Shown here piece by piece: positions 41,127 to 53,031 of a stretch of DNA of 64,000 nucleotides. Made by a program: the position numbers and the translations under genes. The notes under the pieces were generated by a model, which did no database searches, was not told the DNA's origin, and was given only the letters and a program-made list of their open reading frames with translations. The DNA is from Mycolicibacterium parafortuitum (GTDB lineage Bacteria > Actinomycetota > Actinomycetes > Mycobacteriales > Mycobacteriaceae): contig NZ_AP022598.1 of NCBI RefSeq assembly GCF_010725485.1, positions 806,001 to 870,000 on the forward strand. The letters run 5' to 3'. Positions within the stretch are counted from its first letter, which is position 1. Each line of letters opens with the position of its first letter.

Positions 41127-42206
41127 CACCGTCGTCGGGGCGCCGTCGGGTGAGATGCGGCGCGCGGTCCTGCCGGGGCTGGCGTTGAGGTGCTCGTCGA
41201 GTTCGACGCCGAACGCGGTGAGTCCCGACAGCGCGTCGCGCCGGACCGCGGCATCGTTCTCCCCCACGCCGGCGGTGAACGTGATCACGTCCGCCGAGCC
41301 GAGTACCGCCAGATACGCGCCGATGTACTTGCGCAGCCGGTGGATGTACACGTCATAGGCCAAACGTGCTGCGCTGTCGCCGGATTCGATGCGCCGGTGC
41401 AGCTCCCGGAAGTCGATCTCACCGCCGAGGCCCCGCACGCCCGAGCGGCGGTTGAGCATCGACTCGATGTCCTCGACGCTCATCCCGGCCTCCCGCCACA
41501 GGTAGAAGATCACCCCGGGATCGACATCACCGGACCGGGTTCCCATCACCAGGCCCTCCATCGGGGTCAGCCCCATCGAGGTCTCCACCGGCCGGCCGCC
41601 GACGATCGCCGACACCGACGCGCCGTTGCCGAGGTGCAGCACGATCTGGCTCAGCGACTCGAGCGGGGCGCCGAGGAATGCCGCGGCCTGCTCGCTGACG
41701 TACTGATGCGAGGTGCCGTGGAAGCCGTAGCGCCGAACCTTCCAGGTGCGGGCCAGGTCGGCGTCGATGGCATAGGTGGCGGCGGCCGGCGGCAGGTCGT
41801 GGAAGAACGCGGTGTCGAAGACCGCGACGTGCGGCAGGTCGGGCAGCGCCTTGCGGGCGACCTCGATCCCGAGGATGGCGGGCGGATTGTGCAGCGGCGC
41901 AAGCGGAGAGATCTCCTTGAGCCGCGCGATCAGCGCGTCGCCGACGACCGTGGGTTGGTACAGCTCCGGCCCGCCGTGGACCACGCGGTGCCCGACCGCG
42001 ACCAGCCCGAGGTCGTCGAGCCGGTGCCCGTCGGCGGCCAGGGATTCGAACACCGCCTCCATCGCCGCCGCGTGATCGGGCACCGAGCCCTCGTCGCCGA
42101 TCCGCTCGACGATGCCGTCGGCGATCAGCACTCCCGAATCGGGTTCGAGCACAGCGAATTTCACCGAGGACGAGCCCGAGTTCAGTACCAGTACCGTGCG
42201 ACTCAT
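41046..42206 (-). CDS. ackA: Acetate kinase
   Basis: 386 residues. [20 protein letters not shown] (phosphate 1), [56 protein letters not shown] and [15 protein letters not shown] are all present. It interconverts acetyl phosphate and acetate with ADP/ATP. It follows pta in an ATGA overlap, the usual Pta-AckA pair. The C-terminus carries about 12 residues beyond the conserved TDEELAIAR end, which create the overlap with the STAS gene. Confidence 0.96.
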
Positions 42207-44293
42207 CGTGGGTCCCCCTGTGCCTGGATCGCGGTGATGGCCACCGTGTTGACGATGTCCTCGACCAGCGCCCCGCGGGACAGGTCGTTGACCGGCTTGT
42301 TCAACCCCTGTAGCACCGGACCGATGGCGATCGCGCCTGCGCTGCGCTGCACCGCCTTGTAGGTGTTGTTGCCGGTGTTGAGGTCGGGGAAGATCAGTAC
42401 GGTCGCGCGCCCGGCCACCGGGGAGTCCGGCATCTTCGTCTCGGCGACCGACGGTTCGACCGCGGCGTCGTACTGGATCGGGCCCTCCACCGGCAGGTCG
42501 GGTTCCCGGGAGCGCACGAGTTCGGTTGCCTCCCGGACCTTGTCGACGTCTGCTCCGGTGCCGGATGTGCCGGTGGAGTACGACAGCATCGCGACTCGGG
42601 GCTCGATTCCGAACCGCGCCGCGGTGCGTGCCGAGGAGATCGCGATGTCGGCGAGTTGTTCGGCGGTCGGGTCGGGCACGATCGCGCAGTCGCCGTAGGC
42701 GAGCACCTCGTGGGCCAGGCACATCAGGAAGATGCTGGAGACCGTGGAGACACCGGGCACGGTGCGGATGATCTCGAACGCGGGCCGGATGGTGTGCGCG
42801 GTGGTGTGCCGGGCGCCCGAGACCATGCCGTCGACCATGTCGTTGTGCACCAGCATGGTGCCGAAATACGAGACATCATGCATGATCTCGCGGGCACGGT
42901 CGACGGTGACGCCCTTGTGCTTGCGCAACTCGGCGTACTGCTCGGCGAACCGGTCGCACAGCTCGCTGGTCTTCGGGTTCAGCACGTCGGCCGCCGAAAG
43001 GTCCACGCCGAGTTCGGCGGCGCGGGCCCGCACCTGGTTCTCCTCGCCGAGGATGGTCAGCTCCGCCACCGAGCGTTGCAGCAGCCGGCCCGCGGCCTTC
43101 AGGATCCGGTCGTCGTCGCCTTCGGGCAGCACGATCCGTTTGCGGTCCGCACGGGCCCGGTCCAGCAGCTGGTAGGTGAACATCTGCGGGGTGACCACGG
43201 ACGGGATCGGGATGGACAGCTGCGTCAGCAGATCCGCGGTGTCGACGTGTTCGTCCATCAGCGTCAGCGCGGTGTCGATCTTGCGCTGGGACGACGAGGT
43301 CACCCGGCCGCGGGTCGCGGCGACCCGGCTGGCCGTCTCGAAGGTGCCCAGGCCCGTCGCGATGATCGGCAGTCGCTGCCCCAGCCCCGAGACGAGTTTG
43401 TCGATCGCCGGGTGCAGCGCGAGGCCGCCGTTGAGGATCACCGCGGACAGCGACGGGAACCCGTCGGCCGAGTGGGCGGACAGAACGGCGAGCAGGACAT
43501 CGGAGCGGTCGCCGGGGGTGATCACGGCGACGCCCTCGGTCAGGCGTTCGAGCACGTGTTCGGCCGTCATCCCGGCCACCAGCACGTCGAGCACCTCACG
43601 GTGCAGCATCTCCTTGTCGCCCTGCACCACGGTGCCGTCGACGGCGACCCGCAGTTCGGCCACCGACGGCGCGACCAGCAGGGGCTCCTCGGGTAGCACG
43701 TAGCTGCGCGGTTCGATCCGCTGCAGCGCCGCGCGCACCTCGGCCAGCTGGGCCGGGTCGCATCGGTTGGCGACCACGGCCGCGGTGTGGGCGTGCTGCT
43801 CGGCGATCTCGGCGACACAGACCTCGGCGACCTGGGCGACCCGCTCGGGTGTGCGCCCCTGCGCCTTCACCGCGAGTACCACCGGGGCGCCCAGGTTGGC
43901 GGCGATGCGCGCGTTGACCGAAAGCTCGCTGGGCGCGGCGACGTCGGTGTAGTCGCTGCCGACCACCAGCACCGCGTCGCACTGGTCGGCGACGCGGTGG
44001 TAGCGGTCGACGATCTCTGCGAGCGCTGCGTCGAAGTCCTCGTGGAGCTGCTGGTAGGTGACGCCGACGCAGTCCTCGTACGGCAGGCCGGCGGTGGTGT
44101 GGTCGAGCAGCATCTCCAGGATGTAGTCGCGGTCCTCGCCGTCGTCGCGGGTGATGGGCCGGAACACCCCGACCCTGGCGACGTTCGCCGCGAGCCGGTG
44201 CAGAATGCCCAGCGCGATGGTCGATTTCCCGGTGTCGCCCTCGGGCGACGCCACATAGATGGCGGAGATGGTCGCCTTCGCAGCTTCAGGCAC
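42203..44293 (-). CDS. pta: Phosphate acetyltransferase (long form)
   Basis: 696 residues in three parts: an N-terminal dethiobiotin-synthetase-like P-loop domain ([20 protein letters not shown]), a central DRTGG domain (about 215-330), and the C-terminal catalytic PTA_PTB domain ([20 protein letters not shown] to the end, with [20 protein letters not shown] and [16 protein letters not shown]). It transfers acetyl between CoA and phosphate. GTG start. Syntenic with Rv0408; in M. tuberculosis fgd1 would be next, but here a polysaccharide operon intervenes. Confidence 0.96.
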
Positions 44294-44515
44294 AGCTCAA
44301 GCGTGCCAAAGTCTGCCGCGCACCGCACCATCCGCCCGGCAGGTGCAGATATGGCAAAAGTACTCGAGTCCCATCCGAGACAGTTTCGTTACACGTTCAC
44401 GCGATGTGAGCAATTCCATAGACTCAAATTGACAAACTCGACAAAACTTGTTGCGGTCAAAAGAGCAGGCATGACATGATCTCTAACCACCACACCTCGC
44501 GGAAATCGGCGGCCG
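44294..44515. other. Divergent intergenic region, AT-rich
   Basis: This 222-bp region between pta (minus) and the polysaccharide operon (plus) is clearly richer in A and T than its surroundings. It holds a TTGACA (44429-44434), a short dyad ACAA-AAC-TTGT just after it, and TGTGAGCAATTCCA near 44405 that resembles half of a CRP-type site. No -10 sits at the correct distance from the TTGACA, so I do not assign a promoter. Confidence 0.4.
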
Positions 44516-46000
44516 ATGACAACTACAGCAAATTTTGAGCGTTCCGTAGGCGTTCTAGGCAATGCCGATACGCTCACAATCAGCAACGCGTTGCACCGGA
44601 CGAATCGGGCCAGGCAACGGATCCAGATCCGGTGGGGGTACCGGAGCCGCCTGCTGGCCGTCGTAGCTCTGGTCGCGATCGCGTACGGCTCGGACTACGT
44701 TCACCTCGTCGGCGACGCGCTGGCCGGGTCCCGCACTCCGTTGCTGGCGCTGACCCCGCTGCTCGCATTGCTGGTGGCCACCGGCTACCGCCGGCCGCCC
44801 GACGGCGTGAACGACAACGAGTCCGACTGGTTGTTCGTCGCAATCCTGGGGATCATCGGCTTCGCCGGCATCGCACTGGTCACCGCGCGGTTCGAGGCGC
44901 TCGCCGCGGTGTGGCGGCTGGATCTGATGGGCGCGGTGCTCTGGGCTGTCTGCGCGTCGGTCATCCTGCTCGGAGCCCGGCACACCCAGCGGATGTGGCG
45001 AGTGTGGTTGTTCGCGGCGATCAGTGCGACCCCGGTGCCGTTCACCCTCGCCGCGGGCGCGCTCGGCGGCTCGGACACCGCCAACGTCGCCGTGAGCGTG
45101 TGCTTCGGCGCCACGGCGGTGTATCTGGCCGGGGCGCGGGCACCGCGGCCGAAGCGGCTGCTGGCCGCCGCTGCGTCGCTGGCACTCGGCTGGCTCACGG
45201 CAACCCTGCTGATCGACGCGCTGCCGCTGTTCGGTGTCACCGCGATCGCCGCGCTCGGGGTACCGGTGCTCGTCCACGTCGGTATGCGCCGGTGGATCGG
45301 CACCGGGGCCGATACGGGCCCGCTGGAGTCCTACCCGGCCCGGTCGTGGCGCTCGCTGCTCGCACTGCCCGTGCTGGCGCTGGTGGTCGGGTTCGCGCAC
45401 ACCTCCGCACCGACGGACACCGAGCCGCCGGTTGCCCAGGCCGACTGGGTGCGCTCGGCGGGTCTGTTCGACGCCCGCGAGCTCAGCGAAGTCCAGCACT
45501 ACCTTGGTGGTGACGCCGACTACGTCCGGTACGCGGTGCCCGCCGGCGCCGGGATGCCCGCCGCCGCCGTCGACGTGATCACCATGCCCAGCCTCGCGGC
45601 GCTGCACGACCACCACAGCACCGTCTGGTACCCGACGACGCGCCCGCTGAACTTCACCGCGGCACCGCCGCTGACGGCCGGGGCGCCGGTCGAGGTGCGT
45701 GCCGTCTACAGCAACGCCGACACCGCGATCGACAGCACCACCCCGCACTGGTACGCGCTGACCTGGGACTGGCACAGCGACGCCGGCTACCAGCGGGTCA
45801 CCGTCGTGGTGAACCAGGACACCGCGGGCGGCGAACCGCCCGCCCCGCAGCCGATGACTGTCACCGACACCCTGGTCAGCCCCGCCCTGTGGATCGGCAG
45901 GCAGCAGGCCGAGGGGCAGGGCCGCGTCGACGACCTCGTGGTGCGCCGAGCCACCGAGGTCGCTGACAGCCTGCTGGCGCACCTCGTCACCCGTGCATAG
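44516..46000 (+). CDS. Polytopic membrane protein with extracytoplasmic C-terminal domain
   Basis: 494 residues. About nine helices occupy residues 45-280. A soluble domain at about 295-494 follows, with repeated acidic/aromatic strands (STTPHWYALTWDWHSDAGYQ) and a helical end (DLVVRRATEVADSLLAHLV). The order helices then outside domain, placed first in an exopolysaccharide operon, recalls exosortase/EpsI-type proteins. However, the catalytic Cys of exosortases is not seen, so the resemblance is only architectural. Its stop overlaps the GTG of the glycosyltransferase gene. No close family is recognised. Confidence 0.6.
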   Translation: MTTTANFERSVGVLGNADTLTISNALHRTNRARQRIQIRWGYRSRLLAVVALVAIAYGSDYVHLVGDALAGSRTPLLALTPLLALLVATGYRRPPDGVNDNESDWLFVAILGIIGFAGIALVTARFEALAAVWRLDLMGAVLWAVCASVILLGARHTQRMWRVWLFAAISATPVPFTLAAGALGGSDTANVAVSVCFGATAVYLAGARAPRPKRLLAAAASLALGWLTATLLIDALPLFGVTAIAALGVPVLVHVGMRRWIGTGADTGPLESYPARSWRSLLALPVLALVVGFAHTSAPTDTEPPVAQADWVRSAGLFDARELSEVQHYLGGDADYVRYAVPAGAGMPAAAVDVITMPSLAALHDHHSTVWYPTTRPLNFTAAPPLTAGAPVEVRAVYSNADTAIDSTTPHWYALTWDWHSDAGYQRVTVVVNQDTAGGEPPAPQPMTVTDTLVSPALWIGRQQAEGQGRVDDLVVRRATEVADSLLAHLVTRA

Positions 46001-47423
46001 CTACACCCCAGGAAGTCAACTACCCGAACACTTCTCGGCGCGGAAGGTTTTCGACGGGGCGTTCCTGCTCGTCGGCGGCGCCGCGCTCGCGGCAGGCGTC
46101 GTGGCCGCGTTTCTGGCACCCGAGGCCGTCCTGCCGATAGTGACCACCGTGCTCGCGGCGCTGTATCTGGCCTCGACGATCGACCGGCACTGGCTGCTGC
46201 TGCGGGGACTGCGGGCGCCGAGCATGATCACCATCAGCGACGAGCGGGCGCGCGCGATCCCCGACGACGAGCTGCCCGTGTACACGGTGCTGCTGCCGGT
46301 CTACAACGAGCCTTCGATCGTGCACAACCTGATCGAAGGCGTCGGCAGACTCGAATATCCGAAGGACAAGCTGGAGATCCTGCTCCTCGTCGAGGAGGAC
46401 GACATCGCGACGCAGCGCGCGATGGAGGGCGTCGAACTCGAATCGGTTCGGGTGGTGCGGGTGCCGCACAGCGAACCGAAGACCAAACCCAAGGCGTGCA
46501 ACTACGGGATGGCCTCCCCCGGACTGCGCGGCGAGATGGTCACCATCTACGACGCCGAGGACATTCCCGATCCCCTCCAGCTGCGCAAGGCCGTCGCGGC
46601 CTTCGCCGATCTGCCGCCCCAAGTCGGGTGCCTGCAGGCCAGGCTCGGTTACTTCAACGAGAAGCAGAACCTGCTGACGCGCTGGTTCTCCCTGGAGTAC
46701 GACCAGTGGTTCGGAATCATGCTGCCCGCGGTGCAGGCCGCCGGGTGTGTGATCCCGCTGGGCGGTACCTCCAACCACATGCACACCGGCGTGCTGCGCG
46801 CCATCGGCGGCTGGGACGAGTTCAACGTCACCGAGGACGCCGACCTGGGGGTCCGGCTCGCCCGGCATGGCTACCACACCCGGATCCTGGACTCGGTGAC
46901 CCTCGAAGAGGCGAACTCCGATGTGCTGAACTGGATTCGGCAGCGCTCCCGGTGGTACAAGGGCTACCTGCAGACGATGCTCGTGCACCTGCGCCAGCCG
47001 GTGACCCTGTGGTCCGAGATCGGCGGCAAGGGCATCCTGCGGTTGATCAACATGACCGGTGCGGTGCCTATCGTCAACGTGATCAACCTGCTGTTCTGGT
47101 CCACGATGGCGACCTGGGTCCTCGGACGGCCCCATCTGATCGAGATGGCGTTCCCGTCGCTGACCTACTACACCTACCTCGTCATGTACCTTGTGGGAGC
47201 GCCACTTTCGGTCTACATCGGATTGATCGTCGTACAACGGCTGGACAAACCGTATCTGTGGTGGGCAGCGGCGCTGATCCCGCTGTACTGGATGCTGCAG
47301 TCGATCGCCGCGATGAAGGCGATCTTCCAGCTGCTGACCCGACCTCACTTCTGGGAGAAGACCGTGCACGGACTGTCCTCGACTCATCCCGCGCCGCTGG
47401 CGCACAGCGGGAGGGAACTCTGA
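45993..47423 (+). CDS. Family 2 glycosyltransferase, cellulose-synthase-like
   Basis: 476 residues. Two N-terminal helices (about 23-65) precede a cytoplasmic GT2 domain: VYTVLLPVYNEPSIVHNLIE, IYDAEDIPDP with Asp187 and Asp190, TEDADLG (Asp282, Asp284) and the processive-synthase motif Q317-R-S-R-W321. Four to five helices follow (about 350-450). The layout is that of inverting processive polysaccharide synthases (BcsA-like), without a PilZ domain. The GTG start overlaps the upstream stop; the stop overlaps the next ATG (TGATG). The product polymer cannot be told from sequence. Confidence 0.88.
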   Translation: MHSYTPGSQLPEHFSARKVFDGAFLLVGGAALAAGVVAAFLAPEAVLPIVTTVLAALYLASTIDRHWLLLRGLRAPSMITISDERARAIPDDELPVYTVLLPVYNEPSIVHNLIEGVGRLEYPKDKLEILLLVEEDDIATQRAMEGVELESVRVVRVPHSEPKTKPKACNYGMASPGLRGEMVTIYDAEDIPDPLQLRKAVAAFADLPPQVGCLQARLGYFNEKQNLLTRWFSLEYDQWFGIMLPAVQAAGCVIPLGGTSNHMHTGVLRAIGGWDEFNVTEDADLGVRLARHGYHTRILDSVTLEEANSDVLNWIRQRSRWYKGYLQTMLVHLRQPVTLWSEIGGKGILRLINMTGAVPIVNVINLLFWSTMATWVLGRPHLIEMAFPSLTYYTYLVMYLVGAPLSVYIGLIVVQRLDKPYLWWAAALIPLYWMLQSIAAMKAIFQLLTRPHFWEKTVHGLSSTHPAPLAHSGREL

Positions 47424-49342
47424 TGCCCGACTGGCGTTCCGCAGCCGCGTCCGTCCTCGTCGCCGGCGCGCTGGCACTCGGCGGCGGCATCCCGCACGCG
47501 TCCGCGGCGCCGCCCGAGCGCAACGCCGCGACACCGGCACCGCCGCGCGAGATCTCGTGGACCCAGCTGGGTCTGCCCCGAGAACTGGCGCTCACCGGGG
47601 CCAACCATCTGACCGAGGTGTCGGTGCCCGTGCCCACCGGTGTGACGCCCGCGGTGCTCACCGGCCTGATCGGCTCGGTGGTCAACACCACCGACGCGCG
47701 GCTCGACGTCCTCGATTCCCGCGGCGTCACGCTGGCCAGCGTCAAGGTCGGCGGCAACTCGACCACGACACCGCTGCGCGTCGACATGTCCAGGGCCGCA
47801 GTGGTCGACGGCAGGGCGCCGCTGAGGTTCGCGATCCGGGACGCCGGCACGTCCGCCGACAGCTGCACCCGCCCGCCGTCACTGGTGGTCAGTGAACTGG
47901 CCAGCGCCTATTCCCGGGCCACCCCGGACCCGACCACGGTGGCCGATTTCCTGCCCGCGTTCATCGACGGCATCACCATCCACGTCGGCCCGAACCCGAC
48001 GGACGCCCAGACCCAGGCCGCGCTGAGTCTGGTTGCGGCCCTGACGCATCTGTACCAACCCATCCCGGTCCGCATCGACGTCGACGTCAGCGACGATGTC
48101 CCGGTCCCGGGCCCCGACGTCCGGGTGATCACGCTGCGCGAGGGCAAGGACCCGAGCGTCGTGCTCAAGAACCCGGGCACGCCGCGCGCGGTCCTGGTGA
48201 TCACCGGTGACGGCGACGACCTGGTGCGCCAGGTGTCGCTGTTCGACGACCGGCGCTTCGCGATCGCGCAGACCGACTTCGCGAAGACGCTGTCGGCCAC
48301 CGACCGCAGCCCGACCACCACCACCCTGCAGACGTTCGATCAGCTCGGCATCGCCGGCGACATCGCGGTGCAGGGCAAGTCGACGCTCTACGCGGGATTC
48401 GACGCCGGCGCGTTCGGCGTCGGCTCGATCACCAACGCGAAGGTCCACCTGAAGGCCGATTACACGCCGGTCGTCGGAGGAACGGCCTCGGTGGTGATCC
48501 GGTCGGGCTCCACCGTCCTGGCCACCCGCGTGCTCGACGAGTCCGGAGTCCTCGACGTCACCGGTGATGTCCCGGCCGAGTCGATCACGTCGAAAGTCGG
48601 TATGGCCCTGGAGATCCAGTACGTGCCGGATCAGGATTGCGCGCCGCTGGACAACACGCTGCGGTTCGTCATCGACCCGAGCTCCACCGTCGAGGTGACC
48701 CCGGGCAGCAAGAACCGCGGCGGTTTCCAGGTGCTGCCGATGGCGTTCGCCCCGGAGTTCGACGTGGCCATCGAGTCACCGCAGCAGCTGAGGTTCGCCG
48801 CCGACGTCGTCAACCTGATGGCCCAGCGCTCCAGCGTCATCCTGCGGCCGCACCTGAGCACCCTTGCCGAGTCGGCGAATTCGCAGGCCGGCCTGCTCGC
48901 GGTCGGCTCCGGGGAGAACCTCACGGCCGCCGGACTGGTGGGACCGCTGATGCCCGGCGCCGCGAACTCGGTGGACATCGACGGCACCAGCGTGATCGAT
49001 GTCAATGGCGAGGTCGGTGTGGTGCAGGCCTTCACCCACAACGACCGCACGGTGCTGGCGGTCACCGGCAGCGGCGACTGGGCCGCGGTGGACGCGAGCC
49101 TGGACTACATCCGTGGGCTGCCCGACCGATGGTCATCGCTGACCGGTGACGTGGTGGCCGCAGGTCCGGACAACGAACCGGTCAATCTGACGCTGCGCGA
49201 GGGCGTCGCGCTGGTCAACGAGTACCCCGGCGACGGCTGGAAGTGGTGGGCCGTGGGTTCGGCGGCGGCCGTCGGCGCCGGTGTCCTCATCGGCGCCGGG
49301 TTCCTGATCGCCCGACGCCGGCGCCCACCCGTCATCCCGTGA
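47423..49342 (+). CDS. BcsB-like exported, membrane-anchored protein
   Basis: 639 residues: signal peptide (cleavage near ASAAPP, about 29), a large extracytoplasmic region rich in beta strands, and a single C-terminal helix (about 612-632) followed by ARRRR. In Gram-negative bacteria BcsB has exactly this design (signal peptide, carbohydrate-binding and flavodoxin-like repeats, tail anchor) and guides the growing glucan from BcsA. Position directly after the synthase and TGATG coupling support the same relationship. Similarity to BcsB is inferred from design and context; by eye I cannot align individual domains. Confidence 0.65.
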   Translation: MPDWRSAAASVLVAGALALGGGIPHASAAPPERNAATPAPPREISWTQLGLPRELALTGANHLTEVSVPVPTGVTPAVLTGLIGSVVNTTDARLDVLDSRGVTLASVKVGGNSTTTPLRVDMSRAAVVDGRAPLRFAIRDAGTSADSCTRPPSLVVSELASAYSRATPDPTTVADFLPAFIDGITIHVGPNPTDAQTQAALSLVAALTHLYQPIPVRIDVDVSDDVPVPGPDVRVITLREGKDPSVVLKNPGTPRAVLVITGDGDDLVRQVSLFDDRRFAIAQTDFAKTLSATDRSPTTTTLQTFDQLGIAGDIAVQGKSTLYAGFDAGAFGVGSITNAKVHLKADYTPVVGGTASVVIRSGSTVLATRVLDESGVLDVTGDVPAESITSKVGMALEIQYVPDQDCAPLDNTLRFVIDPSSTVEVTPGSKNRGGFQVLPMAFAPEFDVAIESPQQLRFAADVVNLMAQRSSVILRPHLSTLAESANSQAGLLAVGSGENLTAAGLVGPLMPGAANSVDIDGTSVIDVNGEVGVVQAFTHNDRTVLAVTGSGDWAAVDASLDYIRGLPDRWSSLTGDVVAAGPDNEPVNLTLREGVALVNEYPGDGWKWWAVGSAAAVGAGVLIGAGFLIARRRRPPVIP

Positions 49343-51024
49343 CCGCCACCGTCGCGGCCGCACCGCCGCAGCCCGAGGTCACCGCCACGGCGGTGCCCGG
49401 CCGCGGCGCGGCGCTGACGTTGCTCACCACGCTGTCGGTGCTGTACTTCGCCGTCGGTGCGGTTCTGGTGTTGCGCTACAACCTGTTCGACCCCGACGCG
49501 CCCAGCCGCGTCGCGAACGCCGGCTATGTGTTCATGAGCCGCGACCCGCACCTGTCGGCGATCGGGTTCGTGTGGAACCCGTTGCCCAGCCTCGCGCAAC
49601 TGCCCGTCCTGACATTCGCCGACTGGTGGCCGGCGCTCAAGACGCATGGGCTTGCCGCCGTCGTACAGAGCGCCGTCTTCATGGCCGGCGCCGCGGTGAT
49701 GATCCGCGGTATCGCGATCGACCGCGGGCTGAAACCACTGTGGCGGCGACTTGCGGTCGCATGCTTTGCGCTGCAACCGATGATCATCGTCTACGGCGCG
49801 TCGGGCATGAGCGAGGCGGCCGAGATCTTCGCCATCGTATGGTGCGCCCGGCATCTGCTGCGGTGGGTGCAGACCCGCCGGGAGGGCGACCTGGCCTGGG
49901 CCGGAATCGCCTTGGGCGTCGGGTATCTGGCCCGCTACGAGGTGGTGGTCGCGGGCGCCGGCGCGGCACTGCTGGTGGCCGCGGTGGCGATGTACGGAGC
50001 CAGGGAGCGCGGCAAGCTCGCCGGCTCGGCGCTGATGGTGCTCATCGTGGTGTTCCCGCTCGCCACCGCGTTCGCGACCTGGGCGCTCACCGGCTGGGTG
50101 GTGACCGGTGAGCTGTTCGCCACACTGTCGTCGCGGTACGGCAACGACCATCAGGTCCAGGCGGCGATGCAGAAGGCCGGACCACTGACCCGGGCCGCCT
50201 CCGACGACTGGGTGGTGATCTCGGCCCGCCTTCTCGGCATGCAACCGTTCCTCGGGCTGGCGACGGCCGCCGCCGTCGTGGTCGCCGCAGTGCGGCGCCG
50301 GGTCGATGTGCTCGTCCCGCTGGCACTGTTCGGTCCGGTGCTCGCGTTCGCGGCGTGGGGGCAGTACTCGTCCACCACGTTCGGCTGGTTCCGCTTCTAC
50401 CTGTTGGCGATCCCGATGGTGGTGTGCATCGCGCTGGCGTTCTGGTCCCCGGCCCGCGACCCCGGCGACGAGCGCGGTGCGGTCCTGACCCGCCGGGCGG
50501 GGGCGGCGCTGATCGTCGCGTCGCTGGTGATCGGATTCCCGGTGACGGTGCGGGCGACGATGGACGACCGGATCGGCAACCAGCAGCTGCAGTACGGCCT
50601 GCCGCAGTTGCACGATCCGGAACGCTATCCGCCCGGTGAGCTGTGGTACCGCAGGCTGATGGTCGACGACCGCCGGCTCGCCGAATACTTCGACCGCAGG
50701 AACCTGCCCCCGGGTTCGGTGCTGATGGACACGTTCAACACGTGGGGAGTGTGGTTGGCGTCTGACAACCCGAAGCAGTTCCTCATCACCAGCGACTACG
50801 ACTTCACCGCGGCGCTGAACAGACCCTGGGACTTCGGCGTCGAGTTCATCGTCGCGACCAGCCCGTCGCTCGGCGACTCGGATGCCGTCAGCCAGCGCTA
50901 TCCGACCATGTGGGCCGACGGCGCGGGATTCGGCACGCGTGTGCTGTCGGTGGCCGGTGCCTCCGGTGACGAACGGTTCCGGGTGTACCGGGTGACCGGT
51001 CCGCCGGCGCCACCGCGCAGCTGA
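49339..51024 (+). CDS. Polytopic membrane protein, GT-C glycosyltransferase-like
   Basis: 561 residues from a GTG overlapping the upstream stop. About 11 helices lie between residues 28 and 430, with a first extracytoplasmic loop containing FMSRDPHLSAIGFVWNPLPS, where an acidic pair typical of GT-C enzymes could lie. A soluble C-terminal domain (about 440-561) includes SVLMDTFNTWGVWLAS. The layout fits polyprenyl-phosphate-sugar-dependent transferases (GT39/GT87-like). It may add a lipid-linked sugar to the polymer made by the preceding synthase. Last gene of the four-gene coupled operon. Confidence 0.7.
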   Translation: MTATVAAAPPQPEVTATAVPGRGAALTLLTTLSVLYFAVGAVLVLRYNLFDPDAPSRVANAGYVFMSRDPHLSAIGFVWNPLPSLAQLPVLTFADWWPALKTHGLAAVVQSAVFMAGAAVMIRGIAIDRGLKPLWRRLAVACFALQPMIIVYGASGMSEAAEIFAIVWCARHLLRWVQTRREGDLAWAGIALGVGYLARYEVVVAGAGAALLVAAVAMYGARERGKLAGSALMVLIVVFPLATAFATWALTGWVVTGELFATLSSRYGNDHQVQAAMQKAGPLTRAASDDWVVISARLLGMQPFLGLATAAAVVVAAVRRRVDVLVPLALFGPVLAFAAWGQYSSTTFGWFRFYLLAIPMVVCIALAFWSPARDPGDERGAVLTRRAGAALIVASLVIGFPVTVRATMDDRIGNQQLQYGLPQLHDPERYPPGELWYRRLMVDDRRLAEYFDRRNLPPGSVLMDTFNTWGVWLASDNPKQFLITSDYDFTAALNRPWDFGVEFIVATSPSLGDSDAVSQRYPTMWADGAGFGTRVLSVAGASGDERFRVYRVTGPPAPPRS

Positions 51025-51030
51025 GAGGCG

Positions 51031-52002
51031 TCAACTCGCCGTGAGGTCGACCGGCAGGTGGAGGGTGGCCAGCAGGCCGCGATGGTCGGCGCCTGGCACG
51101 ACGACCGTCCGCACGGCCGACGCCGAGCAGTTCCTGGTCAGGATGTGGTCGATCCCGATCAGGGGCGGACGGTACCCGCGGCCGGGATAGCTGCGCGCCA
51201 GACCGGCGCCGGCGTCGACGGCCGCGTCGCCGTAGCCCTCGTCGAGCAGCTTGCGGAACGGCGCCATCTCATAGGTGGAGTTGAAGTCGCCCGCCACGAT
51301 CACCGCGCCCGCCCCTGCGCTGACGCCGATCTCGCGCAGCGTGTCGGCGAACGCCGTGAGGTCGGAACGCCACGCGTCGATCGGCATGGGCCACGGCGCG
51401 GCCAGGTGGACCGACAACACGGTCGCGTCGACGCGTACCCCCGGGACCCGGATCCTCGACCCGACCATCGGCAATGCGTAGCCGTCGATCCGGCCCGGAT
51501 GCACGAGCGGGAACCTGCTCCAGATACCGATTCCCGCCGCCATCGGCGCGGGCACGATCACCCGGTGCGGGAACACCTGGTCCATCCCGGCGGCGGACAG
51601 ACCGTCGGCGGCCTCCTGCGTCATCTCCTGTACCGCCACCACATCGGCGGAGTTCGCGGCCAGCGCGGCGAGCGCATCCGGATCCGCCTGTCCCATACCG
51701 AGATTGGCGGTCAACACGCGCAGCTCGACGGTCCCGGCCTCGGCTGCCGAGGCCACCTGATAGCGCGGGACGTAGACCCACATCAGCGCGACGGTCAGCG
51801 CCACCGCGACCAGGCTCAGCACCCAGCGCCTGCCGAGGGCGAACAGCAGCATCGCCGCCGGTGCGGCCACCGACAGGTACGGCGCGGCGGCGGCCAGGAT
51901 CAGCGTCGGGTGCCCGGAGATGGGCAGGTACCGGGCCGTGAAGCCCGCCGCCGCGACGACGAGGGCCGCCAGGCCCAGCAGCGTCGCGAGAAGCCGGATC
52001 AT
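51031..52002 (-). CDS. Membrane-anchored endonuclease/exonuclease/phosphatase-family protein
   Basis: 323 residues. Three helices (about 5-80) then an extracytoplasmic EEP domain: LRVLTANLGMGQAD, VVAVQEMTQEAADGL with the metal-binding Glu, AGDFNSTYEMAPFR, IGIDHILT and PGADHRGLLATLHL with the catalytic His. Being outside the membrane, it is more likely a phosphodiesterase or lipid phosphatase than a DNase. It lies 18 nt after fgd1 on the same strand and converges on the polysaccharide operon. Confidence 0.87.
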   Translation of the reverse strand: MIRLLATLLGLAALVVAAAGFTARYLPISGHPTLILAAAAPYLSVAAPAAMLLFALGRRWVLSLVAVALTVALMWVYVPRYQVASAAEAGTVELRVLTANLGMGQADPDALAALAANSADVVAVQEMTQEAADGLSAAGMDQVFPHRVIVPAPMAAGIGIWSRFPLVHPGRIDGYALPMVGSRIRVPGVRVDATVLSVHLAAPWPMPIDAWRSDLTAFADTLREIGVSAGAGAVIVAGDFNSTYEMAPFRKLLDEGYGDAAVDAGAGLARSYPGRGYRPPLIGIDHILTRNCSASAVRTVVVPGADHRGLLATLHLPVDLTAS

Positions 52003-52020: not shown

Positions 52021-53031
52021 TCAGCCGAGCTTGCGCAGCCTCGGCTCCAGGTCACGCTGGAACAGTTCCAGGAACCGGCGCTGATCGTGGCCGGGGGCGT
52101 GGAACACCAGATGGTTCAGGCCCCAGTCGACGTAATCCTTCACCTTGGCGACGGCCTCGTCGGGGTCCGACGCGACGATCCAGCGCTTGGCGACCTGCTC
52201 GATCGGCAGTGCGTCGGCGGCCTTCTCCATCTCGATCGGATCGTCGATGGAGTGCTTCTGCTCGGCGGTCAGCGACAGCGGGGCCCAGAACCGGGTGTTC
52301 TCCAGCGCGAGTTCCGGATCGGTGTCGTAGGAGATCTTGATCTCGATCATCCGGTCGACGTCGTCGGGGTTCTTGCCGGCGGCCTCCGCACCTTCCCGCA
52401 TGGCCGGGATCAGCTTGTCCTTGTAGAGCTCCTCCCCCTTGCCGGAGGTGCAGATGAAGCCGTCGCCGGCACGACCGGCGTACTTGGCGACCTGCGGGCC
52501 GCCCGCGGCGATGTAGATCGGGATGCCGCCCTCGGGCACGTCGTAGATCGACGCGCCCTTGGTCTTGTAGTACTCGCCCTCGAAGTCGACGCGGTCACCG
52601 AGCCACAGTTCGCGCATCAGCCGGACGGATTCGCGCAGCCGTGCGTAGCGCTCCTTGAACTCCGGCCACTCACCCTCGTAACCGGTCGCGATCTCGTTGA
52701 GCGCCTCCCCGGTGCCGACGCCGAGGAAGATCCGGTTCGGGTACAGGCATCCCATGGTCGCGAACGCCTGGGCGATGACGGCCGGGTTGTAGCGGAAGGT
52801 CGGGGTGAGCACCGAGGTGCCCAGCTGCAGTCGCTTGGTGCGTTCCCCGACGGCGGTCATCCATGCCAGCGAGAACGGGGCGTGGCCGCCCTCATGCCGC
52901 CAGGGCTGGAAGTGGTCGCTGACGGTGGCGCTGTCCATGCCGTGCTCTTCGGCGGCGACGGCGAGTTCGACGAGTTCGCGAGGCGCGAACTGCTCCGCCG
53001 ACGCTTTGTAGCCCAGTTTCAGTTCAGCCAT
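52021..53031 (-). CDS. fgd1: F420-dependent glucose-6-phosphate dehydrogenase
   Basis: 336 residues, the standard Fgd1 length. [40 protein letters not shown] with the F420-contacting residues, and [19 protein letters not shown] are strongly conserved; the C-terminus is [20 protein letters not shown]. It oxidises glucose 6-phosphate and supplies reduced F420 to the cell, including F420-dependent nitroreductases. Divergent from the metallo-hydrolase gene by 23 bp, as in M. tuberculosis (Rv0407/Rv0406c). Confidence 0.97.

Follow-up and report, generated by a model that had tools for sequence, protein, structure and literature searches.

The systems closest to the one described here are the Bcs cellulose synthases (BcsA-BcsB of Escherichia coli and Rhodobacter sphaeroides), the pssA-E operon of Listeria, and the pairs CslA-GlxA of Streptomyces and CcsA-CcsB of Clostridioides. 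In Listeria, a family 2 glycosyltransferase (GT2), PssC, stands beside PssD, an ortholog of BcsB in a system not proven to make cellulose (PMC4125290). The other two pairs each combine a Gram-positive synthase with one anchored extracytoplasmic partner, and both partners, GlxA and CcsB, are reported to be non-homologous to BcsB (PMC11022532, PMC7710045). For mycobacteria, published work describes M. tuberculosis as having no BcsA/BcsB homologues and other species as carrying annotated ones (PMC6364259, PMC7952908), and state that the machinery for cellulose or exopolysaccharide is not known (PMC6364259, PMC7952908, PMC12167362). Here we analyze a four-gene operon between pta and fgd1 in a 64-kb stretch (the window) of the 6.04-Mb chromosome of Mycolicibacterium parafortuitum; coordinates are positions in this stretch unless another locus is named. 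The operon probably encodes a synthase-dependent exopolysaccharide machine composed of an exosortase relative (g1), a GT2 of the processive type, a protein with a predicted BcsB fold, and a likely GT-C glycosyltransferase.

The GT2 matches PF13641 (Glyco_tranf_2_3, 1e-28), and the solved chains nearest to it by sequence are those of BcsA (2.1e-9 with the single protein, 2.1e-17 with a 13-row family profile). The catalytic core of Bcs-type synthases, i.e., D,D, DxD, TED, and QxxRW, is present throughout the 43 aligned rows, the window's own row included, with DxE replacing DxD in all but two of them. By these sequence features, the enzyme is a synthase of the processive type. An earlier reading of the letters alone, hereafter the preliminary description, had called it processive and placed QxxRW at residues 317–321, where QRSRW is indeed read. 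It had also stated that a PilZ domain is lacking, and this agrees with the absence of a PilZ match in the Pfam scan and with the end of the protein shortly after its final membrane segments. The NCBIfam equivalogs all score far under their cut-offs (PgaC, 63.5 of 422 bits; CelA, 57.5 of 699.1; MftF, 55.7 of 280). The GT2 also resembles MftF and family 2 transferases of the non-processive kind weakly, which could suggest that it is non-processive itself and that the operon serves to build a short glycan or to modify lipids or proteins; GT-C enzymes often act on proteins or lipids. Yet QxxRW and TED are invariant and the GT2 of the sampled loci is constantly partnered with a BcsB-fold protein, which makes this explanation highly improbable; to our knowledge, the BcsB fold has no role outside polymer export.

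The product of the third gene has, in its predicted structure, the fold of BcsB, as established with AF2, Foldseek, and VIA; the match to the E. coli BcsB fold spans 520 residues. The Pfam BcsB model, PF03170, matches neither the window protein nor anything else in the same genome (0 matches), and at E ≤ 1 it finds only 7 of 66 family members, with 4.7e-4 as the best value. Thus, the BcsB-like anchored protein of the preliminary description stands, although the Pfam model misses it.

The GT2 and its partner resemble the Bcs system in catalytic core and motifs, in the BcsB fold, and in the C-terminal membrane anchor. A true cellulose synthase, equivalent to BcsA-BcsB and making a plain β-1,4-glucan, would account for these features and for the cellulose of mycobacterial biofilms, which has been reported with no known synthase (PMC6364259, PMC7952908); in two relatives (L056 and L058), moreover, a glycoside hydrolase family 6 (GH6) gene lies in a polysaccharide cluster at the pta-fgd1 junction. 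This identity is nevertheless unlikely. The CelA score falls short of its cut-off and below that of PgaC, most GT2 rows carry DxE at the DxD position, and no PilZ, BcsZ, or BcsC was found among the four genes and the three flanking genes scanned. In addition, we know of no place for a GT-C protein or for g1 in the cellulose pathway. The Listeria operon is also a Gram-positive case of a GT2 beside a BcsB-type subunit, and there the synthase does not predict the polymer; it differs in having the cyclic di-GMP (c-di-GMP) receptor PssE (PMC4125290), and g1 and the GT-C-like protein are present on the mycobacterial side. No GGDEF or PilZ receptor of the c-di-GMP-gated Listeria/Bacillus type was found in the mycobacterial operon.

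The preliminary description had assigned no clear family to the first gene. Indeed, Pfam holds no family for the window protein and gives only chance-level matches among 20 relatives, and PF09721 matches neither g1 nor any other protein of its genome (0 matches). Profile searches, however, showed it to be an exosortase relative. With hhalign, the g1 profile aligned over 386 columns at 98.1% probability with L110, a member of the exosortase family found with PF09721 in a different actinobacterial family, whereas nine unrelated proteins and a reversed control stayed at 0.6% or below; another exosortase fragment, L111, failed to align (0.1%). Searching with L110 gave P0142, a near-identical copy of L110 in a different source, and P0143, named exosortase by one source, both of which pass PF09721 and the exosortase/archaeosortase signature TIGR04178. 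The hidden Markov model (HMM) of the g1 family, run with hmmsearch on 7429 sequences, retrieved P0143 at E 7.5e-20 and P0142 at E 1.6e-17, while the next unrelated sequence, with filters off, lay at E 0.0058. Alignment of g1 with actinobacterial exosortases by hhalign gave 98–99%, and the homology to P0142 and P0143 extends over the full length, C-terminal domain included. The predicted model of g1 has a predicted local distance difference test (pLDDT) value of 80.2.

Exosortases are described as carrying the motifs Cys-x-Gly, Asn-x-x-Arg, and His-x-x-x-Gly (Haft et al. 2006, PMC1569441). None of the 65 g1 rows has them in that order, whereas P0142 and P0143, the positive controls, keep all three. 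In the MAFFT alignment, g1 lacks some 20 residues immediately after the Cys position; hhalign places that stretch otherwise. On this sequence evidence, g1 is related to exosortases but has lost their catalytic motifs, and for this reason it should be unable to cut. P0142 and P0143 differ from it in keeping the motifs and in passing PF09721 and TIGR04178.

The C-terminus of the BcsB-like protein, a membrane segment followed by an arginine cluster, recalls the tails that exosortases process, and the PEP_CTERM profile reaches 13 bits on it, below its cut-off of 16. Since g1 belongs to the exosortase family, it might be an active sorting enzyme that reads this membrane segment and arginine cluster as exosortases read PEP-CTERM tails, and the juxtamembrane motif PGDGWKWW is retained in most of the pta-fgd1 clade. 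Such an activity is very doubtful. Besides the loss of the motifs from g1, the same type of tail occurs in 33 of the 33 BcsB-like rows without a GT2, all of which are without g1, and no motif of the PGDGWKWW type was seen in the BcsB-like groups outside the pta-fgd1 clade, other g1-bearing cassettes among them. In the sampled loci, g1 accompanies the synthase and never BcsB alone; this pattern favors a role on the synthase side over one at the BcsB tail. In the locus of L110 (L115:9901-13169), from another actinobacterial family, the exosortase-family gene and a neighbor encoding a GT2-family domain overlap; the exosortase-GT2 neighborhood is therefore not restricted to mycobacteria. Exosortase (EpsH) genes are described as sitting almost always amid exopolysaccharide genes (PMC1569441). 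The name epsH in PMC12167362 refers to a glycosyltransferase and not to an exosortase.

The four genes occur together. Loci around BcsB-like genes were picked by hand from profile matches and gave 78 BcsB-like rows, i.e., 75 different sequences. All 45 rows with a GT2 within 4.5 kb also have g1 within 4.5 kb and a GT-C gene within 6.5 kb. Among the 33 rows without a GT2 nearby, g1 is present in none and a GT-C gene lies within 6.5 kb in four, three of which (L016, L018, and L057) owe it to a neighboring cassette. Beyond the genus, 20 loci were sampled within the family, covering 12 genera and 20 of the 82 genomes with a match. All 20 likewise hold the four genes, in one case split over two strands (L100), and because the same set recurs in other genera, it is not a chance arrangement. 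The order BcsB-g1-GT2-GTC was observed in 19 of 43 rows, g1-GT2-BcsB-GTC in 18, and variants in six (two rows, L030 and L065, represent one genome). With two common orders and constant members, the set has been held together despite rearrangement. In two genomes (L021 and L067), g1 is doubled.

Of the 198 genomes of the genus, 112 carry members of the BcsB-like family. Such members also occur in 92 of 201 genomes of the family Mycobacteriaceae, covering 21 of 31 genera when the own genus is counted, and in 7 of 296 genomes drawn from the phylum. In this last draw, the sole convincing match outside the family (G608) comes with the whole four-gene set. The genome of M. parafortuitum itself holds three BcsB-like genes and two close GT2 copies, one per cassette. 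Its second full cassette (L014:2148-12137; C1, about 263–273 kb) has the order BcsB-g1-GT2-GTC and is flanked by the ribosomal protein L16 region on one side and a sulfatase-family gene on the other.

The fourth gene is the weakest call. The preliminary description had termed its product GT-C-like, to which its topology and an invariant acidic residue now lend support, while the match to PMT_2 stays sub-threshold (23.1 bits, cut-off 26.1). A simple hydropathy scan gave nine hydrophobic segments, and D53, R57, H71, S158, and E159 are invariant in the aligned rows. Many membrane segments and a conserved acidic residue after the first of them, here D53, characterize GT-C enzymes, and by comparison with these enzymes in general D53 is a candidate catalytic residue. 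A search of the PDB with the family profile gave no match. Judged by sequence, the protein is likely a GT-C glycosyltransferase.

In the machine that the operon probably encodes, the GT2 would polymerize a nucleotide-sugar in the cytosol and thread the chain through its own membrane helices, by analogy with BcsA. The BcsB-fold protein, as its fold suggests, would take over the chain and guide it outside the membrane. There, the GT-C-like protein might decorate it with sugars donated by polyprenyl-phosphate, as expected of its class, and g1 may belong to the synthase module as a subunit without proteolytic activity or help to assemble it. The core of the preliminary description, a polysaccharide operon combining a processive-type GT2 with BcsB-like and GT-C-like proteins, is supported, least firmly for the GT-C assignment.

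The operon and its relatives provide named candidate genes for the polymer machinery of mycobacterial biofilms. If the proposed roles are right, a catalytically dead exosortase joins the parts of polymer synthases, which offers a clue to the frequent presence of exosortase genes in exopolysaccharide loci. A literature search, with preprints and most subscription papers outside its range, yielded among the matches listed no paper on the four-gene operon or on a mycobacterial exosortase relative. The main text of a survey that covers synthase-dependent operons of 1758 genomes, about 10% of them from Actinobacteria, does not contain "Mycobacter" (PMC7112194), and bcsB is mentioned as a biofilm gene in one paper on Nocardia (PMC13400229).

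The four genes are coupled by overlapping stop and start codons, as the preliminary description had noted from the sequence and the open reading frame list: g1 and GT2 overlap by eight bases, GT2 and the BcsB-like gene by one (TGATG), and the BcsB-like and GT-C-like genes by four. Their position between pta and fgd1 is also as described, with a gene of the endonuclease/exonuclease/phosphatase (EEP) family before fgd1 (Table 1). In an M. parafortuitum locus, L025, fgd1 is 100% and pta 98% identical to that of the window. The guanine-cytosine (GC) content of the four genes (69.4%) matches that of the flanks (70.0 and 69.9%), so there is no compositional sign of recent import. No sigma-70-like promoter site was found in 44100-51300, and the leader upstream of g1 has no match in Rfam; two sub-threshold mir-8338 matches fall inside pta. 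By eye, AT-rich leaders with recurring TTTGC/GGCAAA-like words are seen in this interval and upstream of g1 in L018, L022, L023, L026, and L028-L030.

Table 1. Features of the operon and its flanks in the 64-kb window.
Feature	Position	Strand	Description
pta	42203-44293	-	Flank upstream of g1, divergent
Intergenic leader	44294-44515	.	Divergent pta/g1 gap; GC 53.6% (whole window, 69.1%)
g1	44516-46000	+	Exosortase-derived polytopic protein by sequence; C-terminal extracytoplasmic domain; catalytic motifs gone
GT2	45993-47423	+	GTG start; 476 aa; processive-type family 2 glycosyltransferase by sequence; without PilZ
GT2 D136 D137	46398-46403	+	Invariant, 43/43 rows
GT2 D187-A-E-D	46551-46562	+	DxD position; DxE 41/43 rows, DxD 2/43
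GT2 T280-E-D	46830-46838	+	43/43 rows
GT2 QRSRW	46941-46955	+	Residues 317-321; 43/43 rows
BcsB-like gene	47423-49342	+	639 aa; signal-like N-terminus (by eye); large extracytoplasmic part; C-terminal anchor
PGDGWKWW	49226-49249	+	Juxtamembrane in BcsB-like protein; itself or a close variant shared by most of the pta-fgd1 clade
C-terminal membrane anchor, then RRRR	49253-49309	+	BcsB-like protein; membrane segment and basic cluster in 78/78 rows
GT-C-like gene	49339-51024	+	GTG start; 561 aa; likely polytopic glycosyltransferase
GT-C-like D53	49495-49497	+	After first hydrophobic segment; candidate catalytic Asp; invariant, 43/43 rows
EEP gene	51031-52002	-	Separates the four-gene block from fgd1
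fgd1	52021-53031	-	Far flank of the block

The use of the BcsB fold outside synthase systems is supported by the third BcsB-like gene of the same genome (L013:3956-11615; C1, about 2.17–2.18 Mb), which adjoins genes of the Wzx, Wzy, and Wzz/tyrosine-kinase types, with no synthase within the 20-kb stretch. In a tree of the 75 BcsB-like proteins, 30 rows were labeled as Wzx/Wzy-linked, ten labels being assigned by hand. This label requires three changes, all forced by supported branches, and none of 500 shuffles was as low. The labeled rows include one fully supported clade of 25 and a smaller second group (L054, L066, and L076) among the cassettes. The BcsB fold is thereby seen in use apart from any synthase; the direction of its move to non-synthase loci, and its meaning, can be proposed as follows. 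Tentatively, the BcsB fold may serve in Mycobacteriaceae as a general exit or scaffold part for surface polysaccharides, paired with a synthase in the cassette that uses a dead exosortase as an obligate subunit, and may have entered Wzx/Wzy-type clusters on at least two occasions without its synthase; there, it would replace the role of Wza/BcsC in Gram-negative envelopes. If so, the pta-fgd1 junction would be a surface-polysaccharide locus at which species gain or lose whole polymers.

The pta-fgd1 gap could be measured in 114 of 198 genomes of the genus, in which the listings place both genes on one contig. Its length was 0–150 bases in 42 genomes, 150–800 bases in one, 0.8–1.5 kb in 21, 1.5–3 kb in two, 3–6.1 kb in 15, and more than 6.1 kb in 33. 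A BcsB-like gene occurs in all 33 gaps above 6.1 kb and in one gap of 2.4 kb (G111), but in none of the 15 gaps of 3–6.1 kb. Five of these 15 were opened, with gene names assigned by Pfam on L050: genes for an amino-acid permease and for a class III aminotransferase are present in all five, a GntR-type gene in four, and a phosphotransferase-family gene in three. Eight of the 13 gaps above 10 kb were also opened; five contain the full cassette, seven Wzx/Wzy/Wzz-type cluster genes, three a UDP-glucose dehydrogenase gene, and two a GH6 gene. In L016, Wzz and UDP-glucose dehydrogenase alone represent such a cluster within the fetched stretch. Across the genus, the junction is thus closed or holds one EEP gene, the permease/aminotransferase block, the cassette, or Wzx/Wzy-type clusters. 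The preliminary description had considered the block an insertion here or a loss in the M. tuberculosis lineage. Because the contents vary across the measured genomes, a single insertion or a single loss is inadequate, and the junction is instead a site of repeated gain and loss.

Some further observations concern this junction. In L060 (G111), whose assembly is 7% contaminated, a lone BcsB-like gene fills the gap, perhaps as a decaying cassette, and M. sediminis has an additional BcsB-like gene near pta (L027:1697-3835). The GH6 (cellulase family) gene of L056 adjoins UDP-glucose dehydrogenase in a Wzx/Wzz-type cluster (L056:8440-11004). A GH6 gene is also found at the junction in L058 and elsewhere in L088, and the genome of M. 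parafortuitum has one, far from the cassette (C1:1644913-1645629).
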